This document shows, piece after piece, positions 9,967 to 64,000 of a DNA stretch of 64,000 nucleotides; the stretch's first letter is position 1, and the number at the start of each line of letters is the position of its first letter. The notes under the pieces were generated by a model. It searched no databases. It had not been told where the DNA came from and saw nothing but the letters and a program-made list of their open reading frames with translations. The position numbers were made by a program, and so were the translations under genes. Source of the DNA: Streptomyces sp. P3 (GTDB lineage Bacteria > Actinomycetota > Actinomycetes > Streptomycetales > Streptomycetaceae); contig JAFEKX020000001.1 of NCBI GenBank assembly GCA_016893485.2, forward strand, positions 434,001 through 498,000, read 5' to 3'.

Positions 9967-10984
9967 AGGTCGACGGCAAGCTCAGCGTGTGGGGCACCAC
10001 GGAGGTCGTGGCGGAGGCCCTCCATCATGAGAAGGCGGGCTACGACGGCCTGTGGGCCTCGGAGTCCAAACACGACCCGTTCCTGCCGTTGCTGCTCGCG
10101 GCCGAGCACACCGACCGGCTGGAGGTGGGCACGGCCATCGCGGTGGCGTTCGCCCGCTCCCCCATGCAACTCGCCTACACGGCACACGACTTGCAGACCT
10201 ATTCCGGCGGGCGCTTCTCCCTCGGCCTGGGCAGCCAGATCAAACCGCACATCGAACGTCGCTTCGCCATGCCGTGGAGCCGCCCCGCCGCCCGTATGCG
10301 GGAGTACGTGAGCGCGCTGCGCGCGATCTGGGCCGCCTGGAACGACGGTGAGAGTCTCGACTTCCGCGGCGACTTCTACACGCACACGCTCATGTCCCCT
10401 TCTTCTCTCCCCCGCCCGCTCCCGGCGGCGCCCCGAAGGTCTTCGTGGCCGCGGTCGGCGAGGCGATGACCCGGGTGGCGGGCGAGGTCGCCGACGGGCT
10501 CCTGGCGCACGGCTTCACCACCGAGCGGTATCTGCGGGAGGTGACTCTCCCGACCGTCGAACCGGGCCTCGACCGGTCAGGTCGCACACGCGACGACTTC
10601 GCCGTCTCGCATCTTCTCCTCACCGCGACCGGCCGCACCGAGGAGGAGTTGGCCCGCGCGATCGACGGCACCCGCCGCCAGATCGCCTTCTACGGCAGCA
10701 CACCCGCCTATCGCGGCGTCCTGGAGCTGCACGGCTGGGGCGAACTCGGCGACGAACTGAACGCGCTGTCGAAGTCGGCCCGCGAGGACAGATGGGAGGC
10801 GATGGGCGGCCTCGTCGACGACGAGGTCCTGCACACCTTCGCGGTCGTCGCGGAGCCGGAGCGGGTGGCGGGCGAGATCAGGCGCCGGTACGGGAGTCTG
10901 GTCGACCGGGTGTCCTTCTACACCGCGTACGAGATCGACGCCGAGGTGTGGGAGCCGATCGTGCAGGAGCTGCACGGAAGTTGA
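9963..10984 (+). CDS. LLM-class (F420- or FMN-dependent) oxidoreductase (1)
   Basis: About 340 residues of the luciferase-like monooxygenase fold: YDGLWASESKHDPFLPLLLA, LEVGTAIAVAFARSPMQLAY, YSGGRFSLGLGSQIKPHIER and, after repair, PKVFVAAVGEAMTRVAGEVA. The pattern with APKVFVAAVG is that of actinobacterial F420-dependent LLM proteins. A C is missing in the C-run near 10395. It could catalyse a Baeyer-Villiger oxidation or an F420-linked (de)hydrogenation of a pathway intermediate; which one cannot be told. It overlaps the preceding ACAD as ATGA and converges on the GntR gene 7 bp downstream. Confidence 0.85.
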
Positions 10985-55767: not shown

Positions 55768-57012
55768 GTGAGTACCCGAGGAGGAACCCTCCACGCCCCC
55801 GCCGAAGCACGGGCCGAGCGGCCTCACCGGACAGCGCCGGCCAGGCTTCCGCTCGTGGTCCACGTGCTCGCACTGGGCACGTTCTTGATGGGCACCACCG
55901 AGTTCGTCGTGGCCGGCCTGCTGCCCGAGATCGCGGGCGACCTTCAGGTGAGCGTCGCCCGGACCGGCCTGATGATCACGGTCTTCGCGGTCGGGATGAT
56001 CGTCGGCGCCCCGTCGACGGCGATGCTGACCCTGCGCTTGCCGAAGCGGCTGACGCTCATGCTCGCCCTGGGCGTCTTCGCCGCCGGGCACGTCATCGTC
56101 GCCCTCAGCTCGAACTTCACTCTGGTGCTGGCGGCACGGTTCCTGACCGCGATCGCCACCGGCGCCTTCTGGGCAGTGGCCAATGTGGCCGCCGCGCGCG
56201 CCGCGGGCCCCGCAGCGAGTTCCCGCGCCCTCGGTCTCGTCGGGGCCGGAGCCATGCTCGCCAATGTCGTCGGCGTACCGCTCGGCGCGATCGCCGGTCA
56301 GTTCATGGGCTGGCGCGGACCGTTCTGGGCCCTCGCAGCTCTGGCCGCGGCGGCCATCGCCCTCATCGCACGCACCGTTGGCCGCGACGGCGGTGACGGG
56401 GAGGCGGTGTCGATCCGCTCGGAGTTGACCACTCTGCGCTCCGGCCGTCTGTGGCTGGTGCTGGCGGCCTGCGCCACCACGACCGGCGGTGTCCTGGCCG
56501 CCTACTCCTACATCTCACCCCTGCTGACCGACCGGTCGGGCATCGCGTCCGGGATGGTCCCGCTGGTCCTGGTCGGCTTCGGCCTGGGTGCCCTGGCCGG
56601 CTCGCTCGTCGGAGGCCGCCTGGGCGACCGCCGCCCGCACACGGTGACCGTCACAGCCGCGACAGGCGCCACGCTCCTGCTTCTCGCGCTCTCCCTGCTG
56701 GCCGGCTACGCCGTCCCCACCATCCTCCTGGTCGCCCTGCTGGGATTCTTCGGACTCGGCGCGAACCCTGTGCTGATGTCCCTGGCCGTCCGCTTCACAC
56801 GCCAGGCACCCGTGCTGGCCTCCGCCCTGACCGTCTCGGCCTTCAACCTCGGCACCGCCATCGGCTCCTGGATCGCCGGCCTCACCCTCGACACCTCCCT
56901 CGGGACCACCGGCCCCGCCATGGTCGGCACCACCATCGCCGCCCTCACTCTCATCCCCACCACGGCCATCGCGCTCCTCCAACGCCGCGCCACATGGCGC
57001 ACAGAGGCGTAA
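55768..57012 (+). CDS. MFS exporter, AraJ/Cmx-like
   Basis: Intact, 414 residues with 12 hydrophobic segments. The first carries LALGTFLMGTTEFVVAGLLP, a signature of the sugar-efflux/chloramphenicol-resistance branch of the DHA1 transporters. VGMIVGAPSTAMLTLRLPKR is the loop-2-3 motif. A proton-driven exporter of small molecules, probably controlled by the divergent XRE regulator. GTG start; a TATAAA box at 55689 lies in the 131-bp divergent region. Confidence 0.88.
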   Translation: MSTRGGTLHAPAEARAERPHRTAPARLPLVVHVLALGTFLMGTTEFVVAGLLPEIAGDLQVSVARTGLMITVFAVGMIVGAPSTAMLTLRLPKRLTLMLALGVFAAGHVIVALSSNFTLVLAARFLTAIATGAFWAVANVAAARAAGPAASSRALGLVGAGAMLANVVGVPLGAIAGQFMGWRGPFWALAALAAAAIALIARTVGRDGGDGEAVSIRSELTTLRSGRLWLVLAACATTTGGVLAAYSYISPLLTDRSGIASGMVPLVLVGFGLGALAGSLVGGRLGDRRPHTVTVTAATGATLLLLALSLLAGYAVPTILLVALLGFFGLGANPVLMSLAVRFTRQAPVLASALTVSAFNLGTAIGSWIAGLTLDTSLGTTGPAMVGTTIAALTLIPTTAIALLQRRATWRTEA

Positions 57013-57121: not shown

Positions 57122-57604
57122 ATGGCACGCCTGGACAACGCGGCCACGGTCGGCACGGAAGTGGGTGATGGTGCGGACCGCCAGGCGCACTTCAACTGGC
57201 CGCAGACGAATCGCGCGCAGGACTCACCGACCTGGACACCTCCTCACTGGAGGAAACCGCGGCCCTCGACGCCATCGGAGCGAGCTCCTTCGCGGGAGAC
57301 CCTCACACCGCCTCCCTGCGCGGACACACCGTCGTCTTCGGCGCGGCCAGCGGCTCCGCCGAACCCGTCTCCCCACCGTGCTCATGGAACGCTCGCTGTC
57401 GCTGCCCGGCGGCGACCTGTCGCACTGCACGCAGACCGGCGAGGACATGCTCCCCCGCGCCGACACGGTGATCGAGGGCATCGCGAACGGCCGGCTGACG
57501 CCGCGCATCTCCAGGGTTCTCCCCTGGCCGATACCACCGAGGCCCACCGCCTGCTGGAGGACCGCCAGACCATCGGCAAAGTCCTGCCCCCTACAGGCAA
57601 CTGA
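57122..57604 (+). pseudogene. Truncated quinone-oxidoreductase-like (MDR) remnant
   Basis: Pieces in different frames match the C-terminal half of NADPH:quinone oxidoreductases: LRGHTVVFGAASGSAEPVSP, DLSHCTQTGEDMLPRADTVI, EGIANGRLTPRISRVLP and LADTTEAHRLLEDRQTIGKV. The catalytic N-terminal half and the GxGxxG nucleotide motif are missing. Because the start is lacking as well as the frame broken, this is a real 5' deletion rather than only a sequencing error. It lies directly before an intact zinc alcohol dehydrogenase. Confidence 0.6.
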
Positions 57605-57650
57605 TCCGCCCCACCCCCATCACACCCCACGAGGAAATGGAGCATCCCTG

Positions 57651-58694
57651 ATGCGCGCAACACTCCTGTACGGCGCCGGCGACGTCCGCGTCGAGAACGT
57701 CCCCGACTCCGTCATCAAGCACCCCACCGACGCCCTGGTACGTATCACCGCCTCCTGCGTCTGCGGCAGCGACCTGTGGCCGTACGCCTCCCACAAGCCC
57801 GAGGACGGGCCCGCGAGGATGGGCCACGAGTTCATCGGCGTCGTCGAGGACATCGGCCCGGAGGTGACCACCGTCCAGCGCGGCGACCTTGTCGTCGCGC
57901 CCTTCGCCATCTCCGACAACACCTGCGCATTCTGCCGCGAGGGACTGCACACCTCCTGCGCCCACGCCCAGGCCAATTTCTGGGACGGCGAAGCGGAAGA
58001 GGGTGGCCAGGCAGAGGCGATCCGCGTTCCGCTCGCCGACGGCACCCTGGTCAAGCTGCCCGTCGCCCCGGACTCCGCGCTCATCCCGTCCCTGCTGACC
58101 CTCTCGGACGTCTTCGGCACCGGCCACCACGCGGCCGTAGCGGGCGGTGTCAACGAGCGCACCCGCGTCACCGTGATCGGCGACGGCGCCGTCGGCCTCC
58201 TGGCCGTCCTCTCGGCCAAGCGACTCGGCGCCGAGCAGATCATCCTCATGGGGCGGCACCAGGCGCGCACCGACCTGGGCCGCGAGTTCGGCGCCACCGA
58301 CGTCATCTCCGCACGTGGCGACGAAGGCGTCGCCCAGGTGCGGGAGTTGTCCGGTGGGCACGGCACGCACGTGGTCCTGGAGTGCGTCGGCAACATGCCC
58401 GCCTACCAGCAGGCCACCGGGATCGTCCGCCCGGGTGGCGTCATCAGCCGCGTCGGCGTCCCGCAGTACGAGGAGGCACCCATCGGCTTCGGCAGCCTCT
58501 TCCGCCACAACATCCGTCTCGCCGGCGGACCCGCGCCGGTCCGCGCCTACATCGAGGAACTGATGCCCGATATCCTCGACGGCACCGTTGAGCCCGGCAA
58601 GGTCTTCGACGTCACCACCAGCCTCGACGGCGTCCCGGCCGGCTATCAGGACATGGCCGACCGCAAGAGCCTCAAGGTCCTCGTCAAGCCCTGA
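57651..58694 (+). CDS. Zinc-dependent alcohol dehydrogenase (MDR)
   Basis: Intact, 347 residues. The catalytic-zinc Cys is in ASCVCGSDLW and the His/Glu in RMGHEFIGVVEDIGPE. The structural lobe has NTCAFCREGLHTSC. The nucleotide domain is VTVIGDGAVGLLAVLSAKRL, and the end KSLKVLVKP is typical. It oxidises alcohols or reduces aldehydes with NAD(P). The ATG is 14 nt after GGAAATGGAG. The preceding pseudogene suggests an older MDR pair. Confidence 0.92.
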   Translation: MRATLLYGAGDVRVENVPDSVIKHPTDALVRITASCVCGSDLWPYASHKPEDGPARMGHEFIGVVEDIGPEVTTVQRGDLVVAPFAISDNTCAFCREGLHTSCAHAQANFWDGEAEEGGQAEAIRVPLADGTLVKLPVAPDSALIPSLLTLSDVFGTGHHAAVAGGVNERTRVTVIGDGAVGLLAVLSAKRLGAEQIILMGRHQARTDLGREFGATDVISARGDEGVAQVRELSGGHGTHVVLECVGNMPAYQQATGIVRPGGVISRVGVPQYEEAPIGFGSLFRHNIRLAGGPAPVRAYIEELMPDILDGTVEPGKVFDVTTSLDGVPAGYQDMADRKSLKVLVKP

Positions 58695-59221: not shown

Positions 59222-60345
59222 TCATGACGTGCGTGTCTCCCGGTCGGTGGACGAGGAACGCCTCGCCGGAGGCAGCCAGCCGCCGGTGACTTCCTTGGCG
59301 GGCTTGTGGGGAAGCGGCGCCGGGCGTACTCCTGCGCGTGGGAGCCCGGCAGGACGTACAGGGTCTCCTTCTTGTCCTGGAGCGGTCGTAGCACGGTGTC
59401 CATGAACGCCTTGCGGTCGTCCAGGTACGGGCCCAGGACGTCCTCGCCGGCGGGGCAGACGGCCACGCAGTAGCCGGACTTGTAGCCAGGAGGAGAGGTC
59501 AGGCTCTGCCACATGGAGGCGCTCTCGGAATCGGTGACCCGGGAGCGGTAGTCGGCGGCGTCCTCGCTGTCGGCCACGGTCTGGGCCCAGTCGGTGAACC
59601 CGCTCATGAACTCACGGTAGTTGTGCGTGGTGCAGGCCAGCGCGTCGAAGGCGCCGTCCTTGGCGATGGCGCCGACCGGGCAGGCGGCGACGCACAACTT
59701 GCAGTCGATGCACGGGTTGTAGTCCAGCGCCTGCCCGCACTCGCTCACCTCCGCGTCCACCAGCACGGTGACCAGCAGGACGAAGCTGCCGAACTTCGGG
59801 TGGATGACGTTGCGGTGCAGGCCCATCACACCAAGCCCGGCGGCCACCGCGACCGTCTTGTGCGCCACCACCCAGATCCGCTCGCGGGGGAAACGGTCCA
59901 TCTCCTGAGGGAAGCCGACGGACGGGTTGAGCGCACGGTATCCGGCGTCCTGGAGCACCCGGGTGACCGCGCGGGCGGCATGGTTGGCCTGCTCGTCGGC
60001 CTGATGGAACTCCTGGTTGGCCACACTGCGGGCCGGGGAGCGGCAGTTGTCGCGGTTCATCCGGACCGCCATCGCGATCAGGGTGCGGGTGCCGGGCAGC
60101 GCGGACTGCGCGTACTCGCGCTCGCCGGTCAGGTCGGGGTGGTCCAGGCTCACCGCGGCCGCGTCGTCCGCGCCGGCCGCCAGGCACACCTCGCGCAGCC
60201 AAGCCCCGTCGATCACGGTCGGCGGGCGCACCACGTCACCGGTTCCGCGCCGGGCGAGTACGGCCTGTACCGACGGGTGGGCGGACAGTTTCGCCGGAAG
60301 CCTGGGATGAGCGGGTTGCGCGTCGGTGTCGTGCGCGGCAGTCAT
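59222..60345 (-). CDS. QueG/reductive-dehalogenase-like double [4Fe-4S] protein
   Basis: About 374 residues. The first cluster motif is CIDCKLCVAACPVGAIAKDG and the second GYCVAVCPAGEDVLGPYL. Upstream, TVAVAAGLGVMGLHRNVIHP with KFGSFVLLVTVL matches the cobalamin-contacting region of epoxyqueuosine reductases (GWIGKNxLLIxPxxGS). The N-terminus has VCLAAGADDAAAVSLDHPDL. A break near 59300 precedes the C-terminus KPAKEVTGGWLP. The function is probably a reductive step on a xenobiotic or cofactor; cobalamin use is inferred. Two AAACCGATCGGTTT-type operators precede it. Confidence 0.8.
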
Positions 60346-60392: not shown

Positions 60393-60429
60393 AAACCGAT
60401 CAGTTTCAGCACCGTAAACCGATCGGTTT
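60393..60429. promoter_or_regulatory. Tandem TetR operators upstream of the FeS protein
   Basis: AAACCGATCAGTTT at 60393-60406 and the perfect palindrome AAACCGATCGGTTT at 60416-60429, 23 bp apart start to start, 48-84 bp before the ATG. Confidence 0.8.
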
Positions 60430-60563
60430 TCGCACACAAGCCCAAGCGGCGACCCTGCCCTTCGACCTGTCGAGTCGAGCAGGTTCGCCGCGGGCGTCGG
60501 CGTTCGGCCGTCGACTGATGGGGGCACGGCGCGCGAAGCAGCGCGCGGATCGGGCCGGGGTGC

Positions 60564-61280
60564 TCAGCCTTGGTCGGCCACGGGCGTGGGAGCTGGCCCC
60601 AAGGCAGTTACTCCGTCACCAGGAAGTGGCCGCGACGGGTCGTAGCGCATCGCTCGCCACGGCCGTCCGTCACGAGCGTCGCCCGGCCGTGACTCCCCGT
60701 CACGCGAGACGTCAGCGCATGCCCCCGCATCGAGCAGGGCGGCCACGGTGGGTGCGACGAGCCCGGGCCGCGTGTCGGCCTTGATTCCCGCACGGGCGCT
60801 GGCGCCGTCGAAGACCAGGATCAGCTGACGGGCCAGCAGGTCCGGGTCGCTCGCCCCGCCCTGTTCGGCCTCGGCACGGAAGAAGGCCGTCAGGTTCTCC
60901 TTGACCTGACGGGCCACCCGGCTCGCGGGGTGGCCCGGGTCCTTGAGCTCGATCTGCACGACGAGGTAACGGCAGCCCTGGAAGTCGGGTGCACCCGCCT
61001 GCGCTTCCGCCCGTTCGAAGACGTGCATGATCCGTTCGCGAGGTGGACGGTTGTCGTCGGGCGCGGGAAGGAGTGCGGTCACATAGGTGGAGGCGCGTTC
61101 CTCCAGGCTTGCCGCCAGCAGTTCGCCTTTGCTCTCGAACAGCTGGTACATGGAACGCTTCGACACCCCCGCCGCCTTGCACAGCGCGTCGACGCCGATG
61201 TTGACGCCGTCTCGGTAGGTGAGTGTGGCCGCCGCCTCCAGCAGTCGTTCTCGGGAGCTTGGCATCGCTTCGCTGGTCAT
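60564..61280 (-). CDS. TetR-family repressor
   Basis: Intact, 238 residues. The N-terminal helix-turn-helix is SSRERLLEAAATLTYRDGVN, IGVDALCKAAGVSKRSMYQL with FESKGELLAASLEERA. The C-terminal ligand domain has FQGCRYLVVQIELKDPGHPA and ends in a long Pro/Arg-rich tail. A single copy of the palindrome AAACCGATCGGTTT lies 33 bp upstream, indicating autorepression. The same palindrome precedes the flanking FeS, exporter and hydrolase genes, which it should repress until a ligand is bound. Confidence 0.92.
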   Translation of the reverse strand: MTSEAMPSSRERLLEAAATLTYRDGVNIGVDALCKAAGVSKRSMYQLFESKGELLAASLEERASTYVTALLPAPDDNRPPRERIMHVFERAEAQAGAPDFQGCRYLVVQIELKDPGHPASRVARQVKENLTAFFRAEAEQGGASDPDLLARQLILVFDGASARAGIKADTRPGLVAPTVAALLDAGACADVSRDGESRPGDARDGRPWRAMRYDPSRPLPGDGVTALGPAPTPVADQG

Positions 61281-61312
61281 ATTCTGAGGTTAACTCGTAT
61301 CCGGTCCATTAG

Positions 61313-61326
61313 AAACCGATCGGTTT
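61313..61326. promoter_or_regulatory. TetR operator at the regulator's own promoter
   Basis: Perfect palindrome AAACCGATCGGTTT, 33 bp before the start of the TetR gene. The other 268 bp up to the exporter's stop show no gene. Confidence 0.8.
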
Positions 61327-61594
61327 ACGGGTGAGTGCTGCGAGAAGCGGCAGAAGCGGGACGGCACTCGACGGGGTGCCGCCCGGACGTCGGCAACCCC
61401 TTCGCGGTCTGCTGAATCGCTGCGCTCACCCTGCCCCGCCGCGCTCGGTTCGCCCGATGGCCAGCGGGTCCACCGGCCTCGGAATTCAGCCTGCATCGTG
61501 CGCGTCCTCCACCGGCGACGATCGGAGCGCAGGGCATTCCCGCCGCGGTGGGGTCGATCAGTCCGCTGGGCAAGCTCACGGGGCTGCTCGTGTT

Positions 61595-63091
61595 TCAGTG
61601 CGCGATCACGGGCTCGCCCTCCGACGGCGCCAGCGCCGAATTGGGCAGCAGGAACGCCGTGAGCACCGCACCGACCACGAAGATCCCGGCCCCCACGCCA
61701 GGGTGGCCGTGTAGCTCTCGACCCCGGCCTGGGCCACGGTCAGTGCGGTGGGCTTGTGCGCGGACAGGTAGTCGGTCGCCGCCGACGAGGCGACGGTGGT
61801 CAGCAGCGCCGTACTGATCGAACCGCCCACCTGCTGGCTGGTGTTGATCAGCGCCGATGCGACGCCCGCGTCCTCGTGGTGCACGCCTGCGGTCGCACCC
61901 TGGAACGCGGTGGTCATCACCGCGCCGATACCGAGACCCAGCAGGATCATGCCCGGCATGATGTCGGCGACGTAGGCGCTGTCCAGCGCGAGCTGCGTCA
62001 GCAGGGCCATACCGGATGCGGAGACCAGGAAGCCGGCGCTGACCACCGCCTTCGGTCCGACCCTGGGCAGCAGGAGTGCGGGCACCGTGGTCGACGAGGC
62101 GACGATGGCCGTGACCATCGGCAGGAAGGACAGACCGGCCTCGATCGGCGAGTAGCCGATGCTGGCCTCCAGGTAGTAGGTCAGGAACAGGAAGATCGAG
62201 AACATCCCCATGCCCAGGACAAACACGGCAAGGAACGAACCACCTCGGGTCCGGTCCAGCACGAGTCGCAGGGGCAGCAGCGGATGCGCGACCCTGGTCT
62301 CCAGCCACGCGAAGACCGCGAGCAGCACCACGCCGCTGATCATGGAGCCGAGGGCGACCGGGTCGGTCCAGCTGGTGGATTCGACGTGTGCGAACCCGTA
62401 GACGATGCCGAACAGCGCGGCGCTCACCACTGCCGTGCCAGGAATGTCGATATTGGGTCGCTCGGTGAGCACGGGCTTGGCCAGCAACAGCAGCGCACCG
62501 GCCAACGCGACGCCCGCGAAAACGACGTTCACGTACATCACCCAGCGCCACGACGCCCATTCGGTGAGCATGCCGCCGAGCAGGAGTCCGACCGCGGCGC
62601 CCGCGCCGGACAGCGCGCTGAAGATGCCGAACGCCTTCGGCCTCTCGGCCGGGTCGGTGAAGGTCACGCTGAGCAGCGAGGCGCCGCGGGCGCGAGCAGC
62701 GCGGCGAAGAGGCCCTGGGCCACGCGGGCCGCGACGAGCATGTCGAAGCTGGTGGCCGCTCCGCCGACGACGGACGCGGTCGCGAAACCGATCAGGCCGG
62801 TCACGAAGGTCGTACGCCGGCCGAACAGGTCACCGAGTCGGCCCCGAGCAGCAGCAGGCTGCCGAACGCCAGGGCGTACCCCGTGATGACCCACTGCCGA
62901 CTGCCGTCACTGAAACCGAGCGCATGTTGCGCCTCGGGCAGTGCGATGTTCACGACGGTCGCGTCGAGCGTGACCATGAGCTGCGCCACGCCGAGCACGA
63001 CGAGAACCCACCAGCGCACGGCATGTGAGCCGCGGCGGCCCGAGTCTGTTTTCCCGGAGGCGGGCGCCCCGTGGTCGTAGGTGGTACTCAC
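61595..63091 (-). CDS. DHA2-family MFS exporter (EmrB/QacA-like)
   Basis: About 498 residues, 14 hydrophobic segments expected. LVVLGVAQLMVTLDATVVNI with ALPEAQHALGFSDGSRQWVI is the DHA2 signature of helix 1. RLGDLFGRRTTFVTGLIGFA is the loop-2-3 motif. Later come MLTEWASWRWVMYVNVVFAG and ASALINTSQQVGGSISTALL. Breaks lie near 62838, 62685 and 61695. GTG start after AGGGGA. It exports hydrophobic compounds using protons and should be derepressed with the TetR unit: two operators lie 42-79 bp upstream. Confidence 0.9.
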
Positions 63092-63132
63092 TTTTCCCCT
63101 TAGTCGCTGGGCATGGACCGACCATCGGCCGG

Positions 63133-63170
63133 AAACCGATCTGTTTCCGGCTAGGAAAACAGATCGGTTT
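63133..63170. promoter_or_regulatory. Tandem TetR operators upstream of the exporter
   Basis: AAACCGATCTGTTT at 63133-63146 and AAACAGATCGGTTT at 63157-63170, 24 bp apart. The two are mirror images of each other. Confidence 0.8.
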
Positions 63171-63300
63171 CCCAGGCGCAAGCGAGCGGGTGCTTCCGCC
63201 CGGAGCAGCCCTGCAACACGGCCCGGAGAGCCCACCGCCCAGGGTCCGCGGACGCGGCGCGACAGGGTGAAGACCGGACCCCTGGCGGGCTTGCGCTCGG

Positions 63301-63338
63301 AAACCGATCGGTTTACGGTGACCAAAACCGGTCGGTTT
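63301..63338. promoter_or_regulatory. Tandem TetR operators upstream of the hydrolase
   Basis: AAACCGATCGGTTT at 63301-63314 and AAACCGGTCGGTTT at 63325-63338, 24 bp apart, 64-101 bp before the ATG. Confidence 0.8.
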
Positions 63339-63401: not shown

Positions 63402-64000
63402 ATGGCCAGCCAGGAGTCACGTCCCACGATTCACATCCCGGGGACCACCAGTCACACCCTCGCCCCGCGCCCGGGACGCGGCCGCGAGGGGACGCTGCGC
63501 TACCTCAAGGCGGGCACCGGCGCCCCGCTCGTCCTGCTGCACACCGTGCGCACCCAGGCCGAGCACTTCCGCCACCTCATCCCGCTGGTCGCGGACCGGT
63601 ACACCGTGTACGCCCTCGACCTGCCGGGGATGGGCTACTCGAGATCGTGCCGGGGGCGTCGTACGACGAGCCCGCGATGCGTGCGGGAGTCGAGCGGCTG
63701 CTGACGGAACTCGACCTGCACGACGTGACGTTGGCCGGGAGTCCATGGGCGCGGTGCTCGCGCTGACCACCGCGGCCGATCTCCCCGAGCGGGTCCGCCG
63801 GGTCGTCGCGGTCAACACCTACGACTTCCGCGGCGGCATCGCACGCTCCGGCCTCCTCGCCCGCGTGGTGGTCAGCGGCGTCCTCGCGCCCGGCGTGGGT
63901 CCCGTCATCGCCGGTGTCGAACCCAGGCCCGCCCTGCGCAGGATCCTTCAGGGCGGCCTCGGCGACCGACGCGCGCTGCGCGAAGACTATGTGGACGAGC
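63402..64000 (+). CDS. Alpha/beta-hydrolase, 3' end cut by window
   Basis: At least 200 residues visible. LRYLKAGTGAPLVLLHTVRT is the first core strand, then FRHLIPLVADRYTVYALDLP and GMGYSEIVPGASYDEPAMRA. The nucleophile elbow is restored as LAGESMGAVLALTTAADLPE. Breaks lie near 63640 and 63745. AAGGAG 9 nt before the ATG sets the start. Esterase, epoxide hydrolase or haloalkane-type activity cannot be separated because the acid and His are beyond the window. It is under the paired TetR operators. Confidence 0.85.

Follow-up and report, generated by a model that had tools for sequence, protein, structure and literature searches.

A 14-bp palindrome marks a candidate TetR-family regulon spread over several loci in Streptomyces sp. 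P3

The window, by which we mean the whole stretch of 64,000 nucleotides of Streptomyces sp. P3 that was analysed, ends in a cluster of genes for an Fe-S protein, a TetR-family repressor, an exporter, and a hydrolase. The Fe-S gene (59222–60345, minus strand), which is broken in frame once close to its 3′ terminus, was assigned to the QueG/RdhA superfamily by profile matches. It is followed by the TetR gene (60564–61280, minus strand), an open frame of 238 aa whose helix-turn-helix domain TetR_N (PF00440) scored 33 bits and thus above the gathering cut-off of 24; the relatives of this protein end at about 189 aa. The MFS (DHA2-like) exporter gene (61595–63091, minus strand) starts with GTG and contains three frame breaks. 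Its match to Pfam MFS_1 reached 84.6 bits (cut-off 33.4), and TIGR00711 (DHA2/EmrB) remained below its curated cut-off of 230.2, with 125.6 bits for the main piece of the broken exporter and 211 bits for the intact relative at locus L045. The alpha/beta hydrolase gene begins at 63402 on the plus strand, contains two frame breaks, and runs past the end of the window at 64000 to about 64272; it was recognised by Pfam on the intact L045 relative. In the 3′ neighbour of the window (L007, about 10260–10300) the hydrolase gene's final bases, including the stop, occur as a tandem repeat.

Seven matches to the 14-mer AAACCGATCGGTTT were found in the window at a tolerance of three mismatches, all within 60393–63338. 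Shuffled sequence gave a mean of 0.80 and a maximum of 3 at the same tolerance (100 shuffles), which rules out a chance origin of the seven sites. The earlier note on this DNA had counted seven copies as well; three are exact and four carry one mismatch, and its remark that four of them differ by at most one base per half-site needs correction, as all seven are at most one base off the consensus in total. The Fe-S promoter has a downstream site with one mismatch (60393–60406) and an exact upstream site in the gap between the −35 and −10 boxes (60416–60429), a pair that is conserved in relatives. At the exporter promoter, the downstream (63133–63146) and upstream (63157–63170) sites each have one mismatch in the inner half, and the hydrolase promoter combines an exact upstream site (63301–63314) with a downstream site with one mismatch (63325–63338). 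From start to start, the two sites are 23 bp apart at the Fe-S promoter and 24 bp apart at the other two. This spacing agrees with the earlier description of paired sites, and its equation with two helical turns does not hold, 24 bp being about 2.3 turns. The tetR gene has a single exact copy (61313–61326), as had been noted, which lies 32 bp from the ATG and provides the palindromic operator at the own gene that is typical of the TetR/AcrR family. We infer that the seven sites are operators of the window TetR.

The genome scan that the earlier note had proposed counted 6 exact copies of the 14-mer over 10.0 Mb, half of them within the window, so that it is rare. The exact copies beyond the window lie at C1:72882 and, as a pair, at C1:1268920 and C1:1268952, and two further copies with one mismatch lie at C1:71247 and C1:1265844. 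Eight places matched with two mismatches genome-wide, one of them (72909) again at the 72-kb locus, and the reversed pattern matched at 2 places at two-mismatch tolerance. The 72-kb locus encodes a second TetR, which is 71 and 73% identical to that of the window in two pieces; the site at 71247 is located upstream of its gene, and a gene for a DUF3533 membrane protein adjoins the sites at 72882 and 72909. At the 1.27-Mb locus, an SDR gene stands 32 bp from the site pair, which itself has a spacing of 32, and a MoxR-type gene is found downstream of the site at 1265844. These SDR and MoxR sites are 0.77 Mb away from the window cluster, and a search of the genome for similar TetR proteins revealed none of the window subfamily near them. 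The operators at both loci indicate a regulon that reaches beyond the window, and the term "compact" used for it earlier is therefore not upheld.

The distribution of the motif was followed through a sample of 295 genomes from the genus, taken out of a larger group, with a TetR match threshold of E ≤ 1e-40. A close TetR match was present in 83 genomes and the exact 14-mer in 89, with 81 genomes having both, 2 the TetR alone (G148 and G169, in which the exact motif is missing), and 8 the motif alone (G031, G047, G074, G099, G113, G165, G257, and G278). The 81 genomes with both contained 321 exact copies, compared with 8 in the 212 genomes that lack a close TetR, where no genome has more than one copy (Fisher value for co-occurrence 2e-60, which ignores relatedness). 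The reversed 14-mer was absent from all 295 genomes. A reading of the 14-mer as a common motif was rejected on the counts in its own genome and in the genus, the exact 14-mer being rare where this TetR is absent.

Relatives of the locus were fetched by TetR similarity alone. Forty regions hand-picked from the TetR match list, 80 named loci obtained by TetR protein similarity, and the window made up 121 loci with 113 distinct TetR genes; as these rows are related sequences, counts taken from them are not independent. Upstream of tetR, a site no more than one mismatch away from the 14-mer was found in 111 of the 113 distinct genes, the two exceptions being L078 without a site and L083 with only a two-mismatch site, and all 12 listed loci from other genera carry TetR and site together. 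Sites were more conserved than their flanks in every promoter class, with values for the exporters of 0.97 versus 0.58–0.63. The operator set of the window recurs, as Fe-S, exporter, hydrolase, and tetR genes all have operators in 7 of the 113 distinct loci, including the window. Together with the rarity of the 14-mer elsewhere, this recurrence supports the earlier proposal, and the sites look like one TetR regulon holding these four genes. The set of targets varies strongly over the 113 loci: one SDR oxidoreductase (SDR1) was the only operator-bearing target in 18 and another (SDR2) in 13, 16 loci had no site at any of six target classes, and 18 operator groups had no assignable target. The two SDR oxidoreductases are the commonest partners in relatives and are absent from the window cluster. 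With these partners, and with an operator at the paralogous TetR, the unit does not appear self-contained as the earlier note had described it.

Site arrangement differs between tetR and its candidate targets. In relatives, 127 of 136 distinct tetR cases show just one operator, with one common distance in 118 of the 127, and target genes carry operator pairs with a spacing fixed by promoter class. A spacing of 24 was found in 34 of 40 exporter, 51 of 69 SDR1, 30 of 40 SDR2, and 27 of 27 hydrolase pairs, and a spacing of 23 in 24 of 28 Fe-S pairs, while 11 SDR pairs are spaced by 30–34 bp. These counts omit a few single sites and one triple, and some rows belong to the exporter and the hydrolase class alike, since the divergent gap between these genes holds two pairs that both fall inside the 320-bp limit and were counted per gene. 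At most target promoters other than that of the exporter, site 1 fills the 17-bp spacer between a TTG-type −35 and a TAnnnT −10 box, and site 2 lies over the predicted transcription start, which would explain the spacing of 23–24 bp. Counted from the start of site 1, TTG occurs at −10 in 23 of 27 Fe-S, 19 of 26 hydrolase, 56 of 64 SDR1, and 28 of 38 SDR2 promoters (8 further SDR2 promoters have it at −11), and DUF3533 pairs have it at −10 in 3 of 7 and at −11 in 4. TAnnnT at +13 occurs in 26 of 27, 20 of 26, 58 of 64, 38 of 38, and 7 of 7 of the Fe-S, hydrolase, SDR1, SDR2, and DUF3533 promoters, respectively. In the exporter class, TTG lies at −11 in 28 of 38 promoters and a TAnnnT box in the expected place in 0 of 38, which counts against a uniform layout.

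Box positions in relatives allow the promoters of the window to be predicted. The Fe-S gene has a putative −35 TTGTGT (60434–60439) and −10 TACGGT (60411–60416) on the minus strand, and the hydrolase gene a putative −35 TTGCGC (63291–63296) and −10 TACGGT (63314–63319) on the plus strand. For the exporter, a predicted −35 TTGCGC (63176–63181, minus strand) is accompanied by no TAnnnT in its place. A conserved stretch before the tetR ATG contains TAACCT (61287–61292, minus strand), a possible −10 box from which a leaderless message would start. The mismatches of the pairs in relatives are distributed unevenly over outer and inner half-sites, with 6 versus 64 in exporter, 3 versus 34 in Fe-S, and 6 versus 25 in hydrolase pairs, whereas SDR pairs are hardly skewed (13 versus 20 and 7 versus 12) and DUF3533 pairs not (10 versus 5); p-values for this asymmetry assume independence. 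In exporter and Fe-S promoters of relatives, and at 63133–63170 for the exporter of the window, the mismatches of a pair fall in the two facing half-sites, which makes the exporter pair itself a larger inverted repeat.

Within the TetR proteins, the recognition helix (residues 38–47) is conserved at 0.97 compared with 0.86 for residues 60–185 (125 distinct TetR and that of the window), and both operator and recognition helix are nearly alike between paralogues. The structure PDB 3jsj belongs to the same subfamily (aligned residues 1–186 of 188, E 4.8e-87), and we take it to be SAV143 of Streptomyces avermitilis; the PDB search result for 3jsj names no operator or ligand. The terms SAV143, SAV_143, and 3JSJ, the 14-mer, and its inner 12-mer were not found in the literature searched, and in a wider literature search the operator was named in no title or abstract opening among the matches listed.

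The Fe-S protein belongs, by alignment and modelled fold, to the QueG/reductive dehalogenase superfamily, with putative cobalamin binding. TIGR00276 (QueG) stayed below its curated cut-off of 200 with 51.5 bits for the window protein, where the match is confined to the ferredoxin stretch, and 53.4 bits for its relative from locus L048, in both cases over about 80 residues. TIGR02486 (reductive dehalogenase) likewise stayed below 160.35 with 27.6 and 25.9 bits, respectively. Profile matches to structures gave values of 2e-13 for QueG 5d6s and 1.4e-8 for PceA 4uqu. A first fold model built from six near-identical Fe-S sequences was set aside (mean pLDDT 32.8), and the model used was built from 22 sequences for the L048 relative instead of the window protein, with a mean pLDDT of 69.9. 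It was closest to PceA 4ur3_A (Z 18.1, 233 residues, 3.4 Å), nearly tied with NpRdhA 4ras_B (Z 17.2), and followed by QueG 5d6s_A (Z 15.2); the next-best structures were B12 chaperones at Z of about 9. Foldseek TM-scores were modest (≤0.47). The model thus has the B12-binding and ferredoxin domain fold of class III cobalamin reductases at Z 15–18.

The cluster ligands of QueG, the numbering of Cys-236 at its B12-side cluster, and its conserved active-site Tyr are given in PMC4646009. The Fe-S protein has the CxxCxxCxxxCP motif, and seven cysteines are invariant in the 22 aligned Fe-S sequences. At the position equivalent to QueG Cys-236, where an eighth ligand is expected, 19 of the 22 have Ser or Ala and the three most divergent sequences have Cys, so that the two clusters with eight cysteine ligands typical of class III are kept in only 3 of 22. 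The model has a pLDDT <50 at residues 272–290, where the cysteine is replaced, and the claim accordingly rests on the sequence alignment; the HMMER stretch that covers this place is insignificant by itself. The DYH motif was found in 0 of the 22 sequences, and by our own matching its counterpart appears to read EFH in 14 and AWH in 5. With DYH absent, one cluster cysteine gone, and TIGR00276 under its cut-off, the protein is ruled out as QueG itself, and the label "QueG-like" given to it earlier is apt at superfamily level only, the modelled fold being nearest to PceA. Within the class, relatives of the Fe-S protein are encoded in 26 of 394 genomes and in 4 of 137 genera. They were also found on three plasmids of Nostoc and Priestia with 50–55% identity; both plasmid relatives scanned have a C-terminal SCP2 domain, and genes for a TetR, an ABC permease, and an SDR lie close to one Priestia copy.

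The explanation that we consider highly probable is a self-controlled TetR repressor acting through paired operators on a regulon of several loci. Two dimers would sit 23–24 bp apart at the target promoters, the first within the 17-bp spacer that separates −35 from −10 and the second over the transcription start, which would keep RNA polymerase off. The single site of tetR, near the likely −35 region, would impose lighter control. A putative small molecule would bind the C-terminal domain of TetR and make the dimers leave, upon which Fe-S oxidoreductase, MFS exporter, and hydrolase would be made together. The regulon would extend to DUF3533 and the second TetR and to SDR and MoxR, and is probably common to both TetR paralogues. 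The system has the look of a genuine, strongly conserved detoxification switch of an ordinary kind that regulates itself, and it is wider than the earlier note supposed. The chain of modification, hydrolysis, and export by the Fe-S protein, the hydrolase, and the exporter that the note proposed is a guess.

Alternatively, each TetR paralogue may govern its own locus only, with the 14-mer inherited, the circuits separated by accessory contacts or location, and the window unit self-contained. Both TetR genes of this genome indeed adjoin their own sites, but the SDR and MoxR sites have no subfamily TetR nearby, and site and recognition helix are nearly identical in the paralogues, so we regard this as doubtful. 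A different regulator could also bind the 14-mer, tetR being merely one of its targets. At several loci (L049, L063, L068, L071, and others) the operator pair of SDR2 lies between that gene and a divergent one for an unrelated second TetR, TetR2, so that one site may be shared by two different TetR proteins. The reading of another regulator would also suit the eight genomes with the motif and without a close TetR. The near-complete coupling of motif and TetR in the genus and the joint presence of both in all listed loci of other genera nevertheless make it improbable.

The frame breaks of exporter, hydrolase, and Fe-S gene could finally mark a decaying remnant in which these genes are pseudogenes and the sites relics. 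Breaks also occur in the paralogous TetR and in MoxR at the two other loci, identity to intact relatives is 76–95% on either side of them, and assembly completeness is 74.7% despite 10 Mb in two contigs, which together indicate sequencing error. As the operators are also intact, the pseudogene reading was rejected as very improbable. Returning to the self-regulated multi-locus regulon, a further-reaching version may be put forward tentatively: TetR paralogues with a near-identical recognition helix and more variable ligand domains would share one 14-bp operator over scattered, changing detoxification genes. Among these would be an undescribed QueG/RdhA subfamily, in which one cluster cysteine is exchanged and some relatives are fused to SCP2, and which would act in this aerobic soil bacterium by reducing a toxic hydrophobic compound.

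Efflux control of the QacR type works by a dimeric repressor and its operators. The predicted system resembles both TetR/tetA and QacR in its dimeric repressor, its palindromic operators, and the control of the own gene together with an exporter. Unlike in these systems, tetR of the window is not divergent to its targets and is arranged in tandem with the genes for the Fe-S protein and the exporter, and control would extend to several promoters and loci that are separate from one another. PMC3511530 describes the TetR/tetA paradigm as a dimeric repressor with palindromic operators that controls its own gene and an exporter, and reports 250 of 372 TetR-family genes in three streptomycetes as divergent to a neighbour. 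A TetR subfamily with a solved structure, for which no printed operator was found in the literature searched, gains a testable operator, a promoter layout, and a list of candidate targets in many actinomycetes. Two details stand out, the putative operator sharing between paralogues and the odd Fe-S enzyme. If the paralogues share sites, they would offer a tidy system for how duplicated repressors divide work, and the Fe-S subfamily would add a putative branch to a small class of cobalamin-linked enzymes.

Two other TetR proteins of the same genome, at L011 and L012, are 37 and 39% identical to that of the window, respectively. A related perfect palindrome, AGACAGATCTGTCT, is located about 30 bp upstream of the L011 match (position 1457, near C1:9382612), and no related palindrome was found for L012 at up to four mismatches. 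Within the window, a zinc-dependent alcohol dehydrogenase gene (57558–58694, plus strand) without the 14-mer adjoins the Fe-S gene, and a further MFS exporter (55768–57012, plus strand) is close to the Cmx/CmrA chloramphenicol efflux family, with 344 bits against a cut-off of 400.
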